Part shown: piece after piece, positions 8,486 to 15,595 of the stretch
How positions within the stretch are numbered: the first letter of the stretch is position 1
Layout of the letters: each line of letters opens with the position of its first letter
Source: Hyphomicrobiales bacterium
GTDB taxonomy: Bacteria; Pseudomonadota; Alphaproteobacteria; Rhizobiales; Methyloligellaceae
Assembly: GCA_003135455.1 (NCBI GenBank)
Contig: PLBV01000097.1
Location: 10,598-45,200 of the forward strand
DNA: 34,603 nt
Reading direction: 5' to 3'
The notes under the pieces: model-generated
Told to the model about the DNA's origin: nothing
The model's input: the letters and a program-made list of their open reading frames with translations, nothing else
Databases searched by the model: none
Translations under genes and position numbers: made by a program

Positions 8486-8511
8486 AACGCAAGCGCCCTG
8501 GTGGCCGTTCC
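8486..8511 (-). promoter_or_regulatory. EcfG (sigma-EcfG) type promoter GGAAC-N17-CGTT
   Basis: Plus-strand AACG (8486-8489), 17 nt, GTTCC (8507-8511); -10 is 75 nt upstream of the ATG at 8411. Confidence 0.7.
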
Positions 8512-8556
8512 AGAGGAGGGACGAGTAAGCGGGACGCAAAGGCGGCTAAGGCCGCG

Positions 8557-8805
8557 TCAATTGCCGGGTTCGAGGCTCTCGATGGCCTCGTGCACGGCGC
8601 GCAGCAACTCGGCCGGGCTGCGGTTCTCGTTCATGCCTTCGCCGGTTGCCCTGAGCAGCGCCTCGGCGTCGGCCTCCCACCGAACCAGGATCGAGCGCTT
8701 GTCGTCGACCGAGAGGCCGGTCGTGTGCAGCACATCCTTCGGCGCCAAGAACACCGAGGCGGGGTCGAGCTTGGCCTTGTCGAGATCGATGGCGACGACG
8801 GTCAT
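8557..8805 (-). CDS. Hypothetical protein (82 aa)
   Basis: MTVVAIDLDKAKLDPASVFLAPKDVLHTTGLSVDDKRSILVRWEADAEALLRATGEGMNENRSPAELLRAVHEAIESLEPGN. Internal ATG at 8805 preferred over 8919 because the candidate promoter (8842..8867) lies inside the longer ORF. Confidence 0.65.
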   Translation of the reverse strand: MTVVAIDLDKAKLDPASVFLAPKDVLHTTGLSVDDKRSILVRWEADAEALLRATGEGMNENRSPAELLRAVHEAIESLEPGN

Positions 8806-8841
8806 CCGGAAGCCTTTCTCCGATTGTCCACTGGCAGGGGA

Positions 8842-8867
8842 AACTTTTAGCGGGCAGGTCGCGTTCC
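8842..8867 (-). promoter_or_regulatory. Candidate EcfG-type promoter GGAAC-N17-AGTT
   Basis: Plus-strand AACT (8842-8845), 17 nt, GTTCC (8863-8867), upstream of 8557..8805. Confidence 0.45.
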
Positions 8868-8944
8868 CCGCGATAAGATGTTTAGCGCGCGCCACGAGAA
8901 CGGCATCAAAATCGCGCAAACGGGATCAAAGGAGAATGTAAGAA

Positions 8945-9121
8945 ATGTTTGGTTGGGCGCTGACCTTTCTCATCATCGCACTCATCGCCGCTGCCCTCGG
9001 CTTCGGTGGCATCGCCGGCGCAGCCGTATCGATTGCCAAGCTCATTTTCGTGGTGGCCTTGCTCCTGCTCGCACTACCCATTCTCGCCAACATCTTTGTC
9101 GGCCGCCGTCCGCCGGTCTAG
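8945..9121 (+). CDS. DUF1328/YtjA-type small membrane protein
   Basis: [58 protein letters not shown]; characteristic GFGGIAGAA motif. Not in the ORF track. Confidence 0.8.
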
Positions 9122-9161
9122 CGCGCTATCGCATGAAATAGAATCGCGACAGCGCTTCTAG
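9119..9161. repeat. Palindromic dispersed repeat (degenerate copy)
   Basis: TAGCGCGCTATCGCATGAAATAGAATCGCGACAGCGCTTCTAG, related to 7184..7226. Confidence 0.65.
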
Positions 9162-9224
9162 CTTCTTATTTGAGCATCGCGAACCTAGCGTCCCCGGCGG
9201 CCGCCCAGCGAGGCGGCCGAGAAC

Positions 9225-9779
9225 TCAAGCGGTTCTGGGAATGCCGATAGGCGCCGTAGGACTGTCTTCGGGCGCGACGTCGGACTCCGACAATCCGAGC
9301 ATGTCAGCCAGGCGGTTCCGCGCGCGGTTGACGCGGCTCTTGATGGTGCCGACGGCGCAGCCGCAGATGTCGGCCGCCTCCTCATAGGAGAAGCCGGCGG
9401 CGCCCACCAGGATCAGCGCCTCGCGCTGATCGGCGGGAAGGCGGGTAAGCACGTTGCGGAAATCCTGCATGTCCATATGGCCGTACTGCTCGGGATGGGT
9501 GGAGAGTCTGGCGGCATAGCTGCCGTCGGCATCCTCCACCTCGCGCCGCCGCTTGCGCCGTTCGGAGAAGTAGGTGTTGCGCAGGATGGTGAACAGCCAC
9601 GCCTTCAGGTTCGTCCCTTCACGAAACGAATCGAGATGGTTCCATGCCTTGAACAGCGTCTCCTGCACCAGATCGTCCGCCCGCTCTTTGTCACCGCAGA
9701 GCGAGACGGCGAAGGCCCGCAAGTTGGACATCTCCGCTACGAGCGAATCCCTAAGGCTCGCCGACACTTTGGGTCGCAC
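9225..9779 (-). CDS. ecfG: EcfG-family RNA polymerase sigma factor (general stress response)
   Basis: LVQETLFKAWNHLDSFREGTNLKAWLFTILRNTYFSERRKRRREVED...LPADQREALILVGAAGFSYEEAADICGCAVGTIKSRVNRAR. GTG start abuts the nepR stop; next to nepR and phyR. Confidence 0.93.
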   Translation of the reverse strand: MRPKVSASLRDSLVAEMSNLRAFAVSLCGDKERADDLVQETLFKAWNHLDSFREGTNLKAWLFTILRNTYFSERRKRRREVEDADGSYAARLSTHPEQYGHMDMQDFRNVLTRLPADQREALILVGAAGFSYEEAADICGCAVGTIKSRVNRARNRLADMLGLSESDVAPEDSPTAPIGIPRTA

Positions 9780-10073
9780 TTATTTGTCTCCGCTCCGCTC
9801 GAGATCTTTCAGAAGCTGTAGGAGACGATCGGGGATTGGCTCGCGAGCGACCTCGTCGAACAGCGCGCGGACGTGCCGGCCGATATGAGCTTGCAGGTTG
9901 AGGGTTAGTCCGTCTTCCATGTTCGTCTCAGGCGCGGCATTGTGTTGCAGCTTGCCCTGAGCCTCTGCTGACTGGTCCATGATTTTGCTGGCACCGGGCG
10001 TTTTTGGCCGGCGGTCCTTTTTCTTCGCTTGCTCGTCCACGCTCAGTCCCCTATCCGCCGGGTTCGCTTGCAC
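9780..10073 (-). CDS. nepR: NepR-type anti-sigma factor
   Basis: IGRHVRALFDEVAREPIPDRLLQLLKDLE core; GTG start with AGGAGG upstream; between ecfG and phyR. Confidence 0.9.
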   Translation of the reverse strand: MQANPADRGLSVDEQAKKKDRRPKTPGASKIMDQSAEAQGKLQHNAAPETNMEDGLTLNLQAHIGRHVRALFDEVAREPIPDRLLQLLKDLERSGDK

Positions 10074-10103
10074 AGCGGGGTCCTCCTGCTTTGTAGGCTA
10101 AAA

Positions 10104-10128
10104 AACACCCAAGGCGTCAATTGGTTCC
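10104..10128 (-). promoter_or_regulatory. EcfG-type promoter GGAAC-N16-TGTT for nepR-ecfG
   Basis: Plus-strand AACA (10104-10107), 16 nt, GTTCC (10124-10128); -10 is 31 nt from the nepR start. Confidence 0.75.
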
Positions 10129-10137
10129 CGGTTGTCG

Positions 10138-10162
10138 GGAACCGGAGGCCGGCTTGGGCGTT
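10138..10162 (+). promoter_or_regulatory. EcfG-type promoter GGAAC-N16-CGTT for phyR
   Basis: GGAAC (10138-10142), CGGAGGCCGGCTTGGG (16 nt), CGTT (10159-10162). Confidence 0.75.
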
Positions 10163-10275
10163 GGTTGTAGCTGCCCTGCGGTATGGCGCTTGCCACCCGC
10201 GTCGGGGTTTTCCAGTTGCTACCTTAAGCCCCGTCATGCGAATGGGGTTTCCCCAGGCCCATCACCGAAAGTCAG

Positions 10276-11091
10276 ATGCGGATGTCAATATCGAAAGCGA
10301 TCGCACCTCACCTTCCTTATTTGCGGCGTTTCGCGCGCGCCCTTGCCGGGACGCAAGCTGCCGGCGACTCCTATGTCGCCGCGACATTGGAGGTGCTGAT
10401 CGAAGACCCCTCCATGTTCGACAGCGCGCTCGACCCGCGTGTCGCTCTATACCGGACTTTCGTTGGGCTTTGGAACTCCGTCGACATCAATCTTAAGCCC
10501 GAGGCGCCGGCGGGTTCCATCACCCCGGTCGACCGCAAGCTCGAATCGATCACGCCGCTGCCGCGGCAGGCGTTCCTGCTCTTCGCGGTGGAGGGGTTCT
10601 CGGAAGCGGAAGCTGCACAGATACTCGACACCGATCCCGAGGCGGTAGCGAAGCTCATCGACGTCGCCGGCCGCGAGATTGCGGAACAGGTGGCGACCGA
10701 GGTGCTGATCATCGAGGACGAGCCGATGATCGCCATGGACCTAGAAGCCATCGTCGAAGGCCTCGGCCACCGCGTCACGGCCGTGGCGCGCACGCATTCC
10801 GAAGCCGTGAAGGCTGTAACGAAGACGAAGCCCGGGCTGGTGCTGGCCGACATCCAGCTGGCGGACGGCAGCTCAGGGCTCGACGCCGTCAATGAGATGC
10901 TGGCGAGCTTCGAGGTGCCGGTGATCTTCATCACCGCCTATCCCGACAGGCTGCTCACCGGCGAGCGGCCGGAGCCGGCCTTCCTCATCACCAAGCCCTA
11001 TCAGCCCGACACGGTGAAGGCGATCGTAAGCCAGGCGCTCTTCTTCGAGCGCCGCGCGCGTCTCCGCGATCGGCCGTCGGTGACCGCTTAA
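10276..11091 (+). CDS. phyR: PhyR: sigma-like domain plus receiver, anti-anti-sigma response regulator
   Basis: N-terminal ECF-like region (LPRQAFLLFAVEGFSEAEAAQILDTDPEAVAKLID) and C-terminal receiver (VLIIEDEPMIAMDLEAIVEGLGHRV...LADIQLADGSSGLDAV...VIFITAYPDRLLTGERPEPAFLITKPY). Confidence 0.95.
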   Translation: MRMSISKAIAPHLPYLRRFARALAGTQAAGDSYVAATLEVLIEDPSMFDSALDPRVALYRTFVGLWNSVDINLKPEAPAGSITPVDRKLESITPLPRQAFLLFAVEGFSEAEAAQILDTDPEAVAKLIDVAGREIAEQVATEVLIIEDEPMIAMDLEAIVEGLGHRVTAVARTHSEAVKAVTKTKPGLVLADIQLADGSSGLDAVNEMLASFEVPVIFITAYPDRLLTGERPEPAFLITKPYQPDTVKAIVSQALFFERRARLRDRPSVTA

Positions 11092-11138
11092 GCCGTCCAG
11101 TGCGATGGGAAAGGTGGAGCGGACCTCAAGCAAATGGC

Positions 11139-11170
11139 TTAGAGCGCTGTCGCAGGCGATAGCGCTCTAG
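11139..11170. repeat. Short copy of the palindromic dispersed repeat
   Basis: TTAGAGCGCTGTCGCAGGCGATAGCGCTCTAG. Confidence 0.7.
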
Positions 11171-11197
11171 GGGCCGCTCCCGATGCGTAGCTCGGGG

Positions 11198-11353
11198 TTA
11201 GATTTTGCCGAGCAGAAGCAGGATGAGAAGAACAACGAGGATCAATCCAACGACGCCCGAAGGGCCATAGCCCCAAGCGCGGCTATGCGGCCAGGCGGGG
11301 AAGGCGCCGACGAGGATCAGGATCAGAATAATAATAAGGATCGTGCTCAGCAT
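11198..11353 (-). CDS. DUF3309-type small membrane protein (51 aa)
   Basis: MLSTILIIILILILVGAFPAWPHSRAWGYGPSGVVGLILVVLLILLLLGKI*; conserved WPHSRxWGYGPSG motif. Not in the ORF track. Confidence 0.8.
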   Translation of the reverse strand: MLSTILIIILILILVGAFPAWPHSRAWGYGPSGVVGLILVVLLILLLLGKI

Positions 11354-11638
11354 GTTAGCCTCCTAAGGATCCCGGAAAGGCGACGGATGCGCTGCCTAAG
11401 GGCCGAATGAGGACAGGGACACGCGACACGCTAGACTTATCCTGCCCGAGCTTCTTGCCTACCGCACTCGGGTTTCCCCTCAAAGCGCGCAAAAAACATC
11501 AAGACTTGAAATCGCATTTAGCCCCCAGCGTCCTCAACGGACGCCAGGTTCGGCGAAGTTAAGAGATTCGCCCCCAACCAACAACGACGCCGCGCCTCCA
11601 AGGGAAAAAGTCCCAAGAAGGCTGCGGCGATATTGGCG

Positions 11639-11836
11639 CTAAGCGTTGCTCAGCCAGGTATCGACTTGCTTCTCGGCTACGTCCTTGGCAATGCCGTAGC
11701 GCTCCTGGATCTTGCCGATTAGCTGGACCCTGCGGCCTTCGACCAGGTTGAGGTCGTCATCGGTAAGCTTGCCCCATTGCTGCTGCACCTTACCGCGGAA
11801 CTGCTTCCAATTGCCTTCGATGCGATCCCAATTCAT
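11639..11836 (-). CDS. CsbD-family stress protein (65 aa)
   Basis: MNWDRIEGNWKQFRGKVQQQWGKLTDDDLNLVEGRRVQLIGKIQERYGIAKDVAEKQVDTWLSNA; CsbD signature. The long 263-aa ORF start in the track is an over-extension. Confidence 0.9.
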   Translation of the reverse strand: MNWDRIEGNWKQFRGKVQQQWGKLTDDDLNLVEGRRVQLIGKIQERYGIAKDVAEKQVDTWLSNA

Positions 11837-11902
11837 GCGTCGCCTCCATTTGCTTGGCCCCACTAGGCGCGGGTGGCCCACGGTTGATCCGAAGATAGAG
11901 AA

Positions 11903-11928
11903 AACGCCTCGCCGTGCGCCCGGGTTCC
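11903..11928 (-). promoter_or_regulatory. EcfG-type promoter GGAAC-N17-CGTT for csbD-like gene
   Basis: Plus-strand AACG (11903-11906), 17 nt, GTTCC (11924-11928); -10 is 67 nt from the ATG at 11836. Confidence 0.7.
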
Positions 11929-12025
11929 GTCGACAGCAGGTGGTTGGTGTCGAACACGCCTGACTTAACCGGCGCCAATGGCTTAAAGCGCGGCGTTGGA
12001 GTAGGCTCGCCGCCGGGGGGAAAGC

Positions 12026-12382
12026 ATGGCAACGAAGCGCATCCTCGTGGTCGAGGACGAGTTTCTCATCGCGCTCGATATTGCGGGCGTGTTGGAGCAG
12101 GCCGGCCTCGACGTCATCGGGCCTCACGGCACCATCAGCGCGGCGCTCCGGGCGATCCAAGGCGAAGAGGTGCATGGCGCGCTCTTGGATGCCAATCTCG
12201 GCGGCGAGTCGGTTGGCGTCATCGCCGATGCGCTCGCGGCGCGCAGCATTCCGTTTGCCTTTGTCAGCGGCTACGGACGCGAGCAGCTCCCGGCGCCCCA
12301 CGGCGGGGCACCCCTGATCAAGAAGCCGTTCACCGGCAAGGAGCTGCTCACCGTCGTCGCAGCCTTTGTCGCGGGGCCCTAA
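12026..12382 (+). CDS. Single-domain response regulator (receiver only)
   Basis: ATKRILVVEDEFLIALDIAGVLEQAGLDVIGP...GALLDANLGGESV...FAFVSGYGREQLPAPHGGAPLIKKPFTGKEL. Confidence 0.88.
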   Translation: MATKRILVVEDEFLIALDIAGVLEQAGLDVIGPHGTISAALRAIQGEEVHGALLDANLGGESVGVIADALAARSIPFAFVSGYGREQLPAPHGGAPLIKKPFTGKELLTVVAAFVAGP

Positions 12383-12411
12383 CAGCCTCGCGGGAGAGAC
12401 TTGCCTCGATT

Positions 12412-12436
12412 GGAACAAAATTCGGCCCAACGCGTT
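12412..12436 (+). promoter_or_regulatory. EcfG-type promoter GGAAC-N16-CGTT
   Basis: GGAAC (12412-12416), AAAATTCGGCCCAACG (16 nt), CGTT (12433-12436); 48 nt upstream of the ATG at 12484. Confidence 0.75.
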
Positions 12437-12483
12437 AAAGTGGGCTTTTCCCGTGGCCGGCCTTCAACCTTCGAGGTTCCTTC

Positions 12484-12639
12484 ATGCTCTATTGGGCGTT
12501 AGTTTTCGCCGTTGTGGCCTTGGTGGCAGGGGTGTTCGGCTTCGGGGGCGTTGCCTCTGCGGCGGCGGGCATCGCGCGCATCCTGTTCTTCATCTTCATT
12601 GTGATTTTCCTCATCACCCTCGTCGCGGCCATCGTTTAG
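12484..12639 (+). CDS. DUF1328/YtjA-type small membrane protein, second copy
   Basis: [51 protein letters not shown]; paralogous to 8945..9121. Not in the ORF track. Confidence 0.8.
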
Positions 12640-12741
12640 GGAGCGGCCCTCTCTAGAATGGAGGTTCGGGGGTCCGTTCGTTGATCCCCGTCCTTCACAC
12701 GCGCTGGCAACAGGCTGATTGATCAGATAAAAGTGCTTACG

Positions 12742-12782
12742 AAAAAAAACGCCTGCGACCAGGGGAGGGGATCGGTCACGGC
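12742..12782 (-). terminator. Rho-independent terminator with C-rich loop
   Basis: 9-bp stem with one bulged A and a 13-nt loop, followed by eight T on the minus strand (12742-12749). Confidence 0.75.
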
Positions 12783-12836
12783 CGCTGGTTCGACCGCCGC
12801 GGGAGGGGCGGGGAGGTTCGCGTGCGCTCGAACGTC
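12742..12836 (-). ncRNA. Candidate EcfG-dependent small RNA with C-rich loop (GsrN-like in concept)
   Basis: EcfG-type promoter at 12842..12867 pointing left; ~95 nt; terminal hairpin GCC-GUGACC-[GAUCCCCUCCCCU]-GGUCGC-A-GGC followed by G and U8; no convincing ORF downstream of the promoter. Confidence 0.6.
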
Positions 12837-12841
12837 CTCTA

Positions 12842-12867
12842 AACGAGAAACAGGAGTGAACGGTTCC
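12842..12867 (-). promoter_or_regulatory. EcfG-type promoter GGAAC-N17-CGTT with no evident protein-coding target
   Basis: Plus-strand AACG (12842-12845), AGAAACAGGAGTGAACG (17 nt), GTTCC (12863-12867). Confidence 0.7.
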
Positions 12868-13064: not shown

Positions 13065-14507
13065 ATGCAAAGCTGGTTCAACTTCCTGTTCGGCTCTGAG
13101 GGGTCATCGGTCCGCTCGACTGGCTGGCCCCCGGGCCTCGTCCTGATCGAGACGGGCGCTGACGGGATTATTGCCGCCGCCTTCCTCGTCATCGCCGCGG
13201 CGCTCCTCTACATGCGATGGAAGCCGCCCGGCCGGAACCCCGGCGAGACGGCACTGCTCTGGCTTTTCATTCTCTTCATCTCCGCTAGTGGCCTCGCCCA
13301 TCTTGCTTCGCTGTTCGCGCTGTGGTGGCCGGTGCAGGGCTTAGAAGGGCTGCTGAAGGCCGCGGCCGCACTGTTCGCGCTCACCACCGCCATCGTCATC
13401 TGGAAGCTGACGCCGCAGCTGTTGCGGCTGCCCTCGCGCGATCGCCTGCAGGCCGAGATCGCCGCCCATTTGCGCACCTTCGAGGAGCTGAAAGCGGCGA
13501 GGCATCAGCTCGAGGAGCGGGTCGAGGCACGTACCAAGGAGCTGGCAGAAGCCAAGCAGCGCTTCGAGATCGCGCTTCGCGGCTCGCCCATCACGGTGTT
13601 CAGCCAGGACAAGGACATGCGCTTCAACTGGATGCATAACCCTCCAGCCGGGCTGATACCGGACCGCGTGATCGGCAAGACTGACGCCGAGGTGCTGCCG
13701 CCGGAAGCGGCAGTCCCCATCGCGGCGGCCAAGCGCAAAGCCATGGAGACGGGCGACTCCCAAGAGCTCGAGGTCAGTTGCGAGCTGTTCGGGCGCCGCA
13801 GGTCCTTCTATCTCTTGATCGAGCCCTTGCGAGACGTCGGCGACGCCGTGATGGGCACGACCTCGGTCGCCGTCGACATCACCGAACGCAAGGCGTCGGA
13901 GGACCAGCTCCGCCTGCTGCTGCGCGAGCTGACCCACCGCTCGAAGAATCTTTTGACGGTCATCCATGCCATCGCGCGGCAAACCGCGTCACGCACCAGG
14001 TCGATCGACGATTTCCTGCAGCATTTCAGCAACCGCCTCATGGCCATCGGCTGCTCCCACGATCTTCTGATCGCCGACGACTGGCATGGCGCCTCGCTGC
14101 GTACCCTGGTCGAGCGGCAATTGAGTGCGCATGCCGACCTCTTCGGCGAGCAGATCGCCATAGAGGGCGAGGACGTCATGCTGAAGCCGGAGGCGATTCA
14201 GAATCTCGGCCTGGCGCTACACGAGCTTGCCACCAACGCCCAGAAATATGGGGCACTGTCGAGTGACAGCGGCCGTGTCGCCATCCGCTGGCAATTCTGC
14301 GAGGGGGACGCCTCCAAGCTGAAGCTCCTCTGGGAGGAGCAGGGCGGTCCGCCCGTGACCGAACCCGAACGGTCGGGTTTCGGCCGTGCCATGATCGAGA
14401 CGGTCGTGAGCCGGGCATTGGAAGGCGAGGTGGAGCTCACCTTTCCGACCCAGGGCGTGCGTTGCGTTATCGTCATTCCCGCCGCGCAAGTGGCGTCGCG
14501 CGGATGA
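13065..14507 (+). CDS. HWE-family sensor histidine kinase with ethylene-receptor-like membrane region and PAS domain (PhyK-like by context)
   Basis: HWE-type motifs RELTHRSKNLLTVIHAIARQT and LALHELATNAQKYGALS; PAS-like FEIALRGSPITVFSQDKDMRFNWMHNPP; three N-terminal transmembrane segments; next to phyR-nepR-ecfG. Confidence 0.9.
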   Translation: MQSWFNFLFGSEGSSVRSTGWPPGLVLIETGADGIIAAAFLVIAAALLYMRWKPPGRNPGETALLWLFILFISASGLAHLASLFALWWPVQGLEGLLKAAAALFALTTAIVIWKLTPQLLRLPSRDRLQAEIAAHLRTFEELKAARHQLEERVEARTKELAEAKQRFEIALRGSPITVFSQDKDMRFNWMHNPPAGLIPDRVIGKTDAEVLPPEAAVPIAAAKRKAMETGDSQELEVSCELFGRRRSFYLLIEPLRDVGDAVMGTTSVAVDITERKASEDQLRLLLRELTHRSKNLLTVIHAIARQTASRTRSIDDFLQHFSNRLMAIGCSHDLLIADDWHGASLRTLVERQLSAHADLFGEQIAIEGEDVMLKPEAIQNLGLALHELATNAQKYGALSSDSGRVAIRWQFCEGDASKLKLLWEEQGGPPVTEPERSGFGRAMIETVVSRALEGEVELTFPTQGVRCVIVIPAAQVASRG

Positions 14508-14559: not shown

Positions 14560-14571
14560 AATCAAAAAAAA

Positions 14572-14613
14572 TAGAGCGCTATCGCGATTCTATTTGACCC
14601 GATAGCGCTCTAA
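14572..14613. repeat. Palindromic dispersed repeat AGAGCGCTATCG...CGATAGCGCTCT
   Basis: TAGAGCGCTATCGCGATTCTATTTGACCCGATAGCGCTCTAA. Confidence 0.75.
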
Positions 14614-14756
14614 GGCTGGTGGAATAGGCGTCCCGTTCGATCAACGCGGTCGTGATTGGGCGTGCGCGCAAGTTGAATTGCCCGCCATCAGCCTCAGTTT
14701 ATGCTCGTGCCTAGAAATGATGGGCGGGCAAGAAGCCAAGCTGGCGAGGAGACAGC

Positions 14757-15263
14757 ATGATCACAAGACGCGACATCACCCTTGGCGCGGTCGGCGTCGC
14801 CGCCGTCGCGGTGACTGGCGCGGGACTGCTCAAGGCGCTGACCGCGCGCGCTCGCAGCGCCGAGACCTTCGAGGTCAACCACACGCCAGAGGAATGGCGG
14901 AAGCTGCTGACGCCGGAGCAATATGCGGTGTTGCGCGAGGAGGACACCGAGCGGCCCTTCACCAGCCCCTTAAACCATGAGAAGCAGACCGGCATGTTCG
15001 ATTGCGCGGGCTGCGATCTGCCGCTGTTTGCGTCGGCCACCAAGTTCGACAGCGGCACCGGCTGGCCGAGCTTTTATGCGCCGATCGAAGGGGCGGTCGC
15101 GAGTACCTCGGATAACACCTTCGGCATGGAGCGCACCGAGGTGCATTGCCGCCGCTGCGGCGGGCATCAAGGCCACGTCTTCAACGACGGCCCGAAGCCG
15201 ACAGGCTTGCGCTACTGCATCAACGGGGTGGCGCTGAAATTCGTCGCTCAAACAAAAAGCTAG
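14757..15263 (+). CDS. msrB: Peptide-methionine (R)-S-oxide reductase MsrB with N-terminal export-like leader
   Basis: CXXC pairs (CAGC, CRRC), [47 protein letters not shown]; leader [25 protein letters not shown]. Confidence 0.93.
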
Positions 15264-15303
15264 AGCGCTGTCGCGATTGGAACCTGACGCGAAAGCGCTC
15301 TAG
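15260..15303. repeat. Palindromic dispersed repeat
   Basis: CTAGAGCGCTGTCGCGATTGGAACCTGACGCGAAAGCGCTCTAG; first TAG is the msrB stop. Confidence 0.7.
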
Positions 15304-15595
15304 GCGATAACCGCTGGCGCCGAAGCACGCTGGCTCGAGGCTGGTGACACGCACCAGGCTCCGCTTGCGGAAGGGAGTTGGCTCCGGACCTATGCCGTCC
15401 CTTTTGCGTTTCGGTAGAAAGCAGTATCCTCTTTAGAACATTGATCTAATTGGGTCCCTTGCGCAAAGTGAGGTACCGCAGCCGGCGATCTTCCGCCAGA
15501 GCGGCCGTGGACCAGCTTCGAATAAGTTGCGCAACTCTCCACGCGAGCGCGGCGACAACCGTTCACCTGTTTCGGAGTGAGGCTGACAGAGCACC

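Follow-up and report, generated by a model that had tools for sequence, protein, structure and literature searches.

The closest described counterpart of the small RNA (sRNA) considered here is GsrN of Caulobacter crescentus, an EcfG-class-dependent sRNA that pairs with the katG leader through its 5' C-rich loop (PMC5869019). Homologues of GsrN were found by BLASTn only within the Caulobacteraceae (PMC5869019, eLife 2018), and GsrN-like RNAs have been predicted at the general stress response (GSR) loci of Rhizobiaceae, Brucella, Rhodopseudomonas and Bradyrhizobium (PMC5869019, Fig. 9). Since EcfG-controlled sRNAs at GSR loci have already been predicted as an alphaproteobacterial class (PMC5869019), the idea of such an RNA is less novel than it may seem, and the sRNA analysed here is best introduced as a credible further example of a described kind of GSR small RNA, without a match to any Rfam family. 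A second point of comparison is offered by ar14/SmelA075 and CcsR (RF02344, RF02791), which resemble it in their C-rich, anti-Shine-Dalgarno-like loops, in the C-rich loop of the terminator hairpin and in their association with stress (PMC3927594, PMC10253847).

The window, i.e. the whole stretch of 34,603 nucleotides that was analysed, belongs to a draft genome that is 84% complete and has named Methyloceanibacter among its genus-level relatives and Methyloligella at the family level. Judged by its sequence, the locus in this window is the GSR locus of a Methyloceanibacter (Methyloligellaceae, Hyphomicrobiales). The core regulators lie together on mixed strands (9225..11091) and were recognized by Pfam as EcfG (9225-9779, minus strand), NepR (9780-10073, minus strand) and PhyR (10276-11091, plus strand), the sigma factor being named EcfG because of its sigma-70 domains and its position adjoining NepR. 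Pfam also placed a CsbD gene in the locus, together with three plus-strand genes: a stand-alone receiver (12026-12382; weak match), a DUF1328 small membrane protein (12484..12639; PF07043, E 2.3e-14) and an HWE histidine kinase (13065..14507; PF07536, E 2.2e-23; PF25487; PF08448). At its N terminus the kinase has a domain resembling that of ethylene receptors (ETR1_N, E 1.7e-20), and it also carries PAS. Two similar inverted repeats, AGAGCGCTATCG...CGATAGCGCTCT and CTAGAGCGCT...AGCGCTCTAG, were noticed 3' of the kinase gene (14560-14665) and 3' of an msrB-like gene (15260-15310), and these are perhaps terminators or members of a repeat family. EcfG-type sites of the form GGAAC-N15-17-YGTT are enriched in the window, with six observed against 1.06 expected, a number reached in none of 100 shuffles. 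All six fall inside the GSR locus (8486-12867) and none elsewhere in the window; five are placed before EcfG/NepR, PhyR, CsbD, DUF1328 and the sRNA, and the sixth is located at 8511 on the minus strand. The site upstream of the DUF1328 gene reads GGAAC-N16-CGTT (12412..12436, plus strand).

The predicted sRNA, of about 95 nt, occupies 12742..12836 on the minus strand, with a start that is uncertain by a few nucleotides, and is spanned over its whole length by our covariance model R1. It is convergent to the DUF1328 gene, divergent from the kinase gene, and separated from ecfG-nepR-phyR by approximately 2-3 kb. The perfect GGAAC-N17-CGTT promoter proposed for it in the earlier note was confirmed by direct reading, since the minus strand from 12867 to 12842 reads GGAAC-CGTTCACTCCTGTTTCT-CGTT, with the -35 box at 12867..12863 and the -10 box at 12845..12842. 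Downstream follow GGACGTTCGAGCGCACGCGAACCTCCCCGCCCCTCCC and then GCCGTGACC-GATCCCCTCCCCT-GGTCGCAGGC-G-TTTTTTTT with its end at 12742, i.e. the hairpin and the G-U8 stretch are indeed present as described. In the predicted fold the 5' arm of stem 1 (GUUCGAGCGCACGCG, 12819..12833, conserved and including one pair with changes on both sides) folds with the likewise conserved 3' arm (CGCGGCGGUCGAAC, 12788..12801, minus strand), and the apical loop 1 between them (AACCUCCCCGCCCCUCC, 12802..12818), the predicted seed region, is C-rich in all six copies known to us and has an unpaired probability of about 1.0. The terminator hairpin (12748..12786) carries a second C-rich loop (AUCCCCUCCCC, 12772..12762), which according to the computed pairing probabilities is also unpaired, and ends in a directly read U8 tail (12742..12749), the counterpart of which, a U-rich end after the hairpin, is found in six of six copies. 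The local 5' GUUCG/CGAAC hairpin suggested earlier did not hold up, as it is neither the predicted nor the conserved fold; instead, GUUCGA (nt 4-9) pairs with UCGAAC (nt 44-49) some 40 nt downstream and encloses the fully unpaired 17-nt C-rich loop. In agreement with the earlier view that no plausible protein is encoded after the promoter, neither a protein family nor a plausible open reading frame was found there. A small-protein reading was rejected, given the lack of a family and of a start codon context, and given that the lengths in relatives differ by numbers not divisible by three.

A DNA similarity search of 60 relatives returned a single weak match, in Methyloligella sp. GL2 (G018), which occupies the corresponding position between kinase and PhyR and has an unchanged orientation. 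When the GSR loci of relatives were extracted and compared for the promoter-RNA-terminator arrangement, it recurred in five of them, namely G001 (UBA4118), G016 (Methyloceanibacter PFL27), G009, G018 and G023 (M. halotolerans), two of which (G018 and G023) are Methyloligella. In all of these relatives GGAAC-N16/17-CGTT precedes a strong hairpin with a U-rich end, and between them, other than in G023, which has diverged, lie GUUCGA, a C-rich stretch and UCGAA. Both promoter boxes are kept in all six syntenic loci, the -35 box being identical in every copy, and the alignment splits this identical box because the spacers, which are 16 or 17 nt long and unalignable, differ by one base. Four relatives were initially detected by the promoter pattern and G018 by DNA similarity without it, so that the perfect conservation of the promoter is partly selected. 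Pairwise identity over the six sequences amounts to 0.55-0.65 in the RNA segments versus 0.27 in the upstream and downstream flanks, and to 1.0 in CGTT versus 0.35 in the promoter spacer. The earlier note had named a lack of conservation of hairpin and promoter in relatives among the findings that would refute its proposal, and both were recovered in the GSR loci of five related genomes. The promoter, the two stems with their two unpaired C-rich loops, the terminator and the synteny can be read or computed from the sequences themselves.

The structure was evaluated on a five-sequence alignment (A2), from which G023, with its shifted stem, was excluded. Here 90.8% of the cells form the two-stem structure, compared with 36-41% when it is slid along the alignment, and four pairs are changed on both sides versus 1.4 expected by shuffling, in a comparison that comprises five sequences and a control that ignores their relatedness. 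Three of the pairs with changes on both sides across the five sequences lie in the terminator hairpin, and RNAalifold returned essentially the same two-stem fold when it was given no structure. Two pairs in the terminator stem of the window copy are non-standard within this consensus, and loop 2 of the G018 copy is not clearly C-rich. The exact GGAAC-N17-CGTT pattern is not enriched in the window genome (15 matches versus 28 for the reversed control pattern), so the promoter string alone proves nothing; the single-sequence fold of the window sRNA is only moderately stable (z = -1.84), and neither observation therefore proves anything on its own. Both would fit an arrangement of motif, palindromes and T-run by mere chance, an explanation rendered extremely improbable by the presence of the arrangement, with covariation, at the corresponding position in five other genomes.

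The same data bear on the strand. The hairpins fold on both strands, the single-sequence energies are lower on the plus strand in four of five cases, and the second hairpin of G023 lies between an A-run and a T-run and could terminate in both directions, all of which would suit an element that acts on the plus strand, either as a terminator of the DUF1328 gene or as a leader of the kinase mRNA, with an incidental minus-strand promoter. However, the minus strand gives the better consensus fold (-36.6 versus -32.3) and is favored by an excess of G-U over A-C cells (7 to 3); it also bears the U-rich end in every copy and, in six of six, a suitably spaced EcfG promoter, leaving a plus-strand element quite unlikely. 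It is even less likely that transcription from the promoter yields a longer antisense RNA of the DUF1328 gene, with the sRNA portion as no more than its leader. Although that gene is convergent and lies about 100 nt beyond the terminator, the hairpin with its U-rich end is kept in all six copies and the flank between terminator and DUF1328 is unalignable. A separate minus-strand sRNA thus remains the preferred reading.

With GsrN this sRNA shares a near-consensus EcfG/SigT promoter, a length of about 100 nt, an intrinsic terminator and the usual position near ecfG-nepR-phyR (PMC5869019), as well as a 5' stem-loop with an exposed C-rich loop, which is assigned here by predicted fold; unlike in GsrN, the terminator loop is C-rich as well. 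By sequence pattern, the EcfG-type promoter is present in all six copies, the proximity to ecfG-nepR-phyR applies to the window and the five relatives, the exposed 17-nt loop is conserved with an unpaired probability near 1, and the intrinsic terminator and a total length of 95-100 nt are found in every copy. The likeness is one of design and position, and the earlier note was right not to claim homology to GsrN; model R1 gave no convincing match in a sample of 385 genomes of the class, which was scanned with strict filters. The GsrN-like RNAs predicted previously (PMC5869019) are likewise associated with an EcfG site and a GSR-locus position and, in the Rhizobiaceae set, with an exposed C-rich loop. 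They come from other genera and are likened to the present sRNA by these criteria and not by sequence, and the Methyloligellaceae set adds to them covariation across related genomes.

Model R1 scored 82.8 bits in the window and 88-102 bits in G001, G016, G009 and G018, all of which belong to its seed, and 23.6 bits in G023, a weak but syntenic match outside the seed. Among 30 genomes of the family, full-length copies occur only in the window genome (G000) and in these four seed relatives. Several other Methyloceanibacter have a DUF1328-kinase gap that is too short to accommodate the sRNA or contains no model match, and the lineage can therefore do without it. The scans of 298 genomes of the order and of the 385 of the class, whose strict filters can lose weak matches, yielded only weak matches without an EcfG promoter and no convincing copy outside the Methyloligellaceae. 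The covariance search across Hyphomicrobiales that had been proposed earlier thus bore out conservation as far as six Methyloligellaceae copies are concerned, but not in the other families sampled. A pattern search found no EcfG promoter just upstream of the weak matches in other families of the order, and a class match beside a hisD-like gene (L175) was rejected, with no EcfG promoter seen. Our literature search found no paper combining "Methyloceanibacter" and "small RNA".

Two of the weak order-wide matches, at L086:1466-1587 and L093:1464-1586, are ar14 sRNAs (RF02344) according to Rfam and hence not copies of this sRNA, and several others carry CCUCCUCCC-type loops. True ar14 RNAs among the weak matches, a sub-threshold CcsR1 match in the window (15.4 bits), and the anti-Shine-Dalgarno-like C-rich loops and terminator common to both could be taken to place the sRNA among the CCUCCUCCC-loop stress sRNAs of the ar14/CcsR ("cuckoo") family and not in a GSR class of its own. 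However, no Rfam family was matched at gathering score by the sRNA, either in the window or in its homologues, CcsR1 falling far short of the 65.3 bits needed. In addition, ar14/CcsR display CCUCCUCCC loops in several hairpins, whereas the loops here are of the CCCCUCCCC type and no copy in alignment A1 contains CCUCCUCCC. Finally, CcsR and a DUF1127 gene share a transcript that is reported to start from an RpoHI/RpoHII promoter (PMC10253847), in contrast to the EcfG-type promoter found here. We regard membership in that family as highly improbable and continue to treat the sRNA as a GSR RNA.

A second, unrelated EcfG-promoted structured RNA was observed beyond the kinase, adjoining an msrB-like gene, in most other Methyloceanibacter GSR loci, with examples at L125:8440-8560, L127:10300-10400 and L131:5333-5450 (all plus strand). 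Model R2 detected it in 13 Methyloceanibacter genomes (L184-L196), including G001 and G016, which also possess the C-rich sRNA; there is no detectable copy in the window genome, and none was seen elsewhere in the order sample. This RNA is G-rich and forms three hairpins, in which 98.7% of the cells are paired and four pairs show changes on both sides; its consensus energy is -42.6, compared with -24.9 on the other strand. No U-run terminator is obvious, and the nine loci scanned gave no Rfam match for this RNA. In M. marginalis a Guanidine-I riboswitch (L131:5583-5685, plus strand) lies shortly 3' of it. Tentatively, the C-rich sRNA might represent a lineage-specific Methyloligellaceae family of GSR sRNAs that arose independently of GsrN and reached a common design by convergence, with an EcfG promoter, C-rich loops and a place in the GSR locus, beside this unrelated EcfG-promoted RNA of Methyloceanibacter. 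If so, post-transcriptional arms of the GSR would have been repeatedly reinvented.

The interpretation that we hold with good confidence is that the segment is the gene of a trans-acting sRNA of the general stress response, whose C-rich loops most likely pair with G-rich sites in mRNAs. It upholds the earlier proposal of a GSR-controlled, C-rich-loop sRNA beside the HWE kinase as the best reading, given that NepR, EcfG and PhyR are encoded in the same locus and that promoter boxes, two-stem fold, C-rich loops and U-rich end are kept in six genomes while the flanks are not. To judge from its promoter, the sRNA is probably turned on by the EcfG stress system itself, and by analogy it probably tunes other genes via its two C-rich loops; from this we infer its transcription, its EcfG dependence, its pairing with G-rich mRNA sites and its effect on targets. 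Under stress, activation of the HWE kinase/PhyR/NepR switch would free EcfG, and EcfG-RNA polymerase would start near 12836 on the minus strand from the conserved promoter and stop at the conserved hairpin-U8 near 12742. The transcript is predicted, with support from covariation, to fold into two stem-loops that each display an unpaired C-rich tract. These tracts would by analogy most likely pair with Shine-Dalgarno regions or G-rich leaders, and such pairing may alter how target mRNAs are translated or how stable they are under stress, in the way the GsrN loop acts on katG in Caulobacter. As a conserved target katG was rejected, the duplexes with its leaders in G009, G016 and G023 being no better than with shuffled sequences; the gene was not found in the window draft genome or in G001, both of which are incomplete, and is present in the four others. 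A sponge relation between the C-rich sRNA and the second, G-rich RNA of G001 and G016 was also discarded, as the cofold gain did not exceed that of shuffled sequences.

Taken together, promoter, covariation and synteny provide comparative evidence that Methyloceanibacter and Methyloligella possess a GSR-controlled sRNA. With its start, stop and loops predicted, this sRNA can be tested directly in cultured Methyloligella. The evidence also lends support to the proposal that, among the Alphaproteobacteria, the stress response recurrently includes a post-transcriptional arm that works with C-rich loops.
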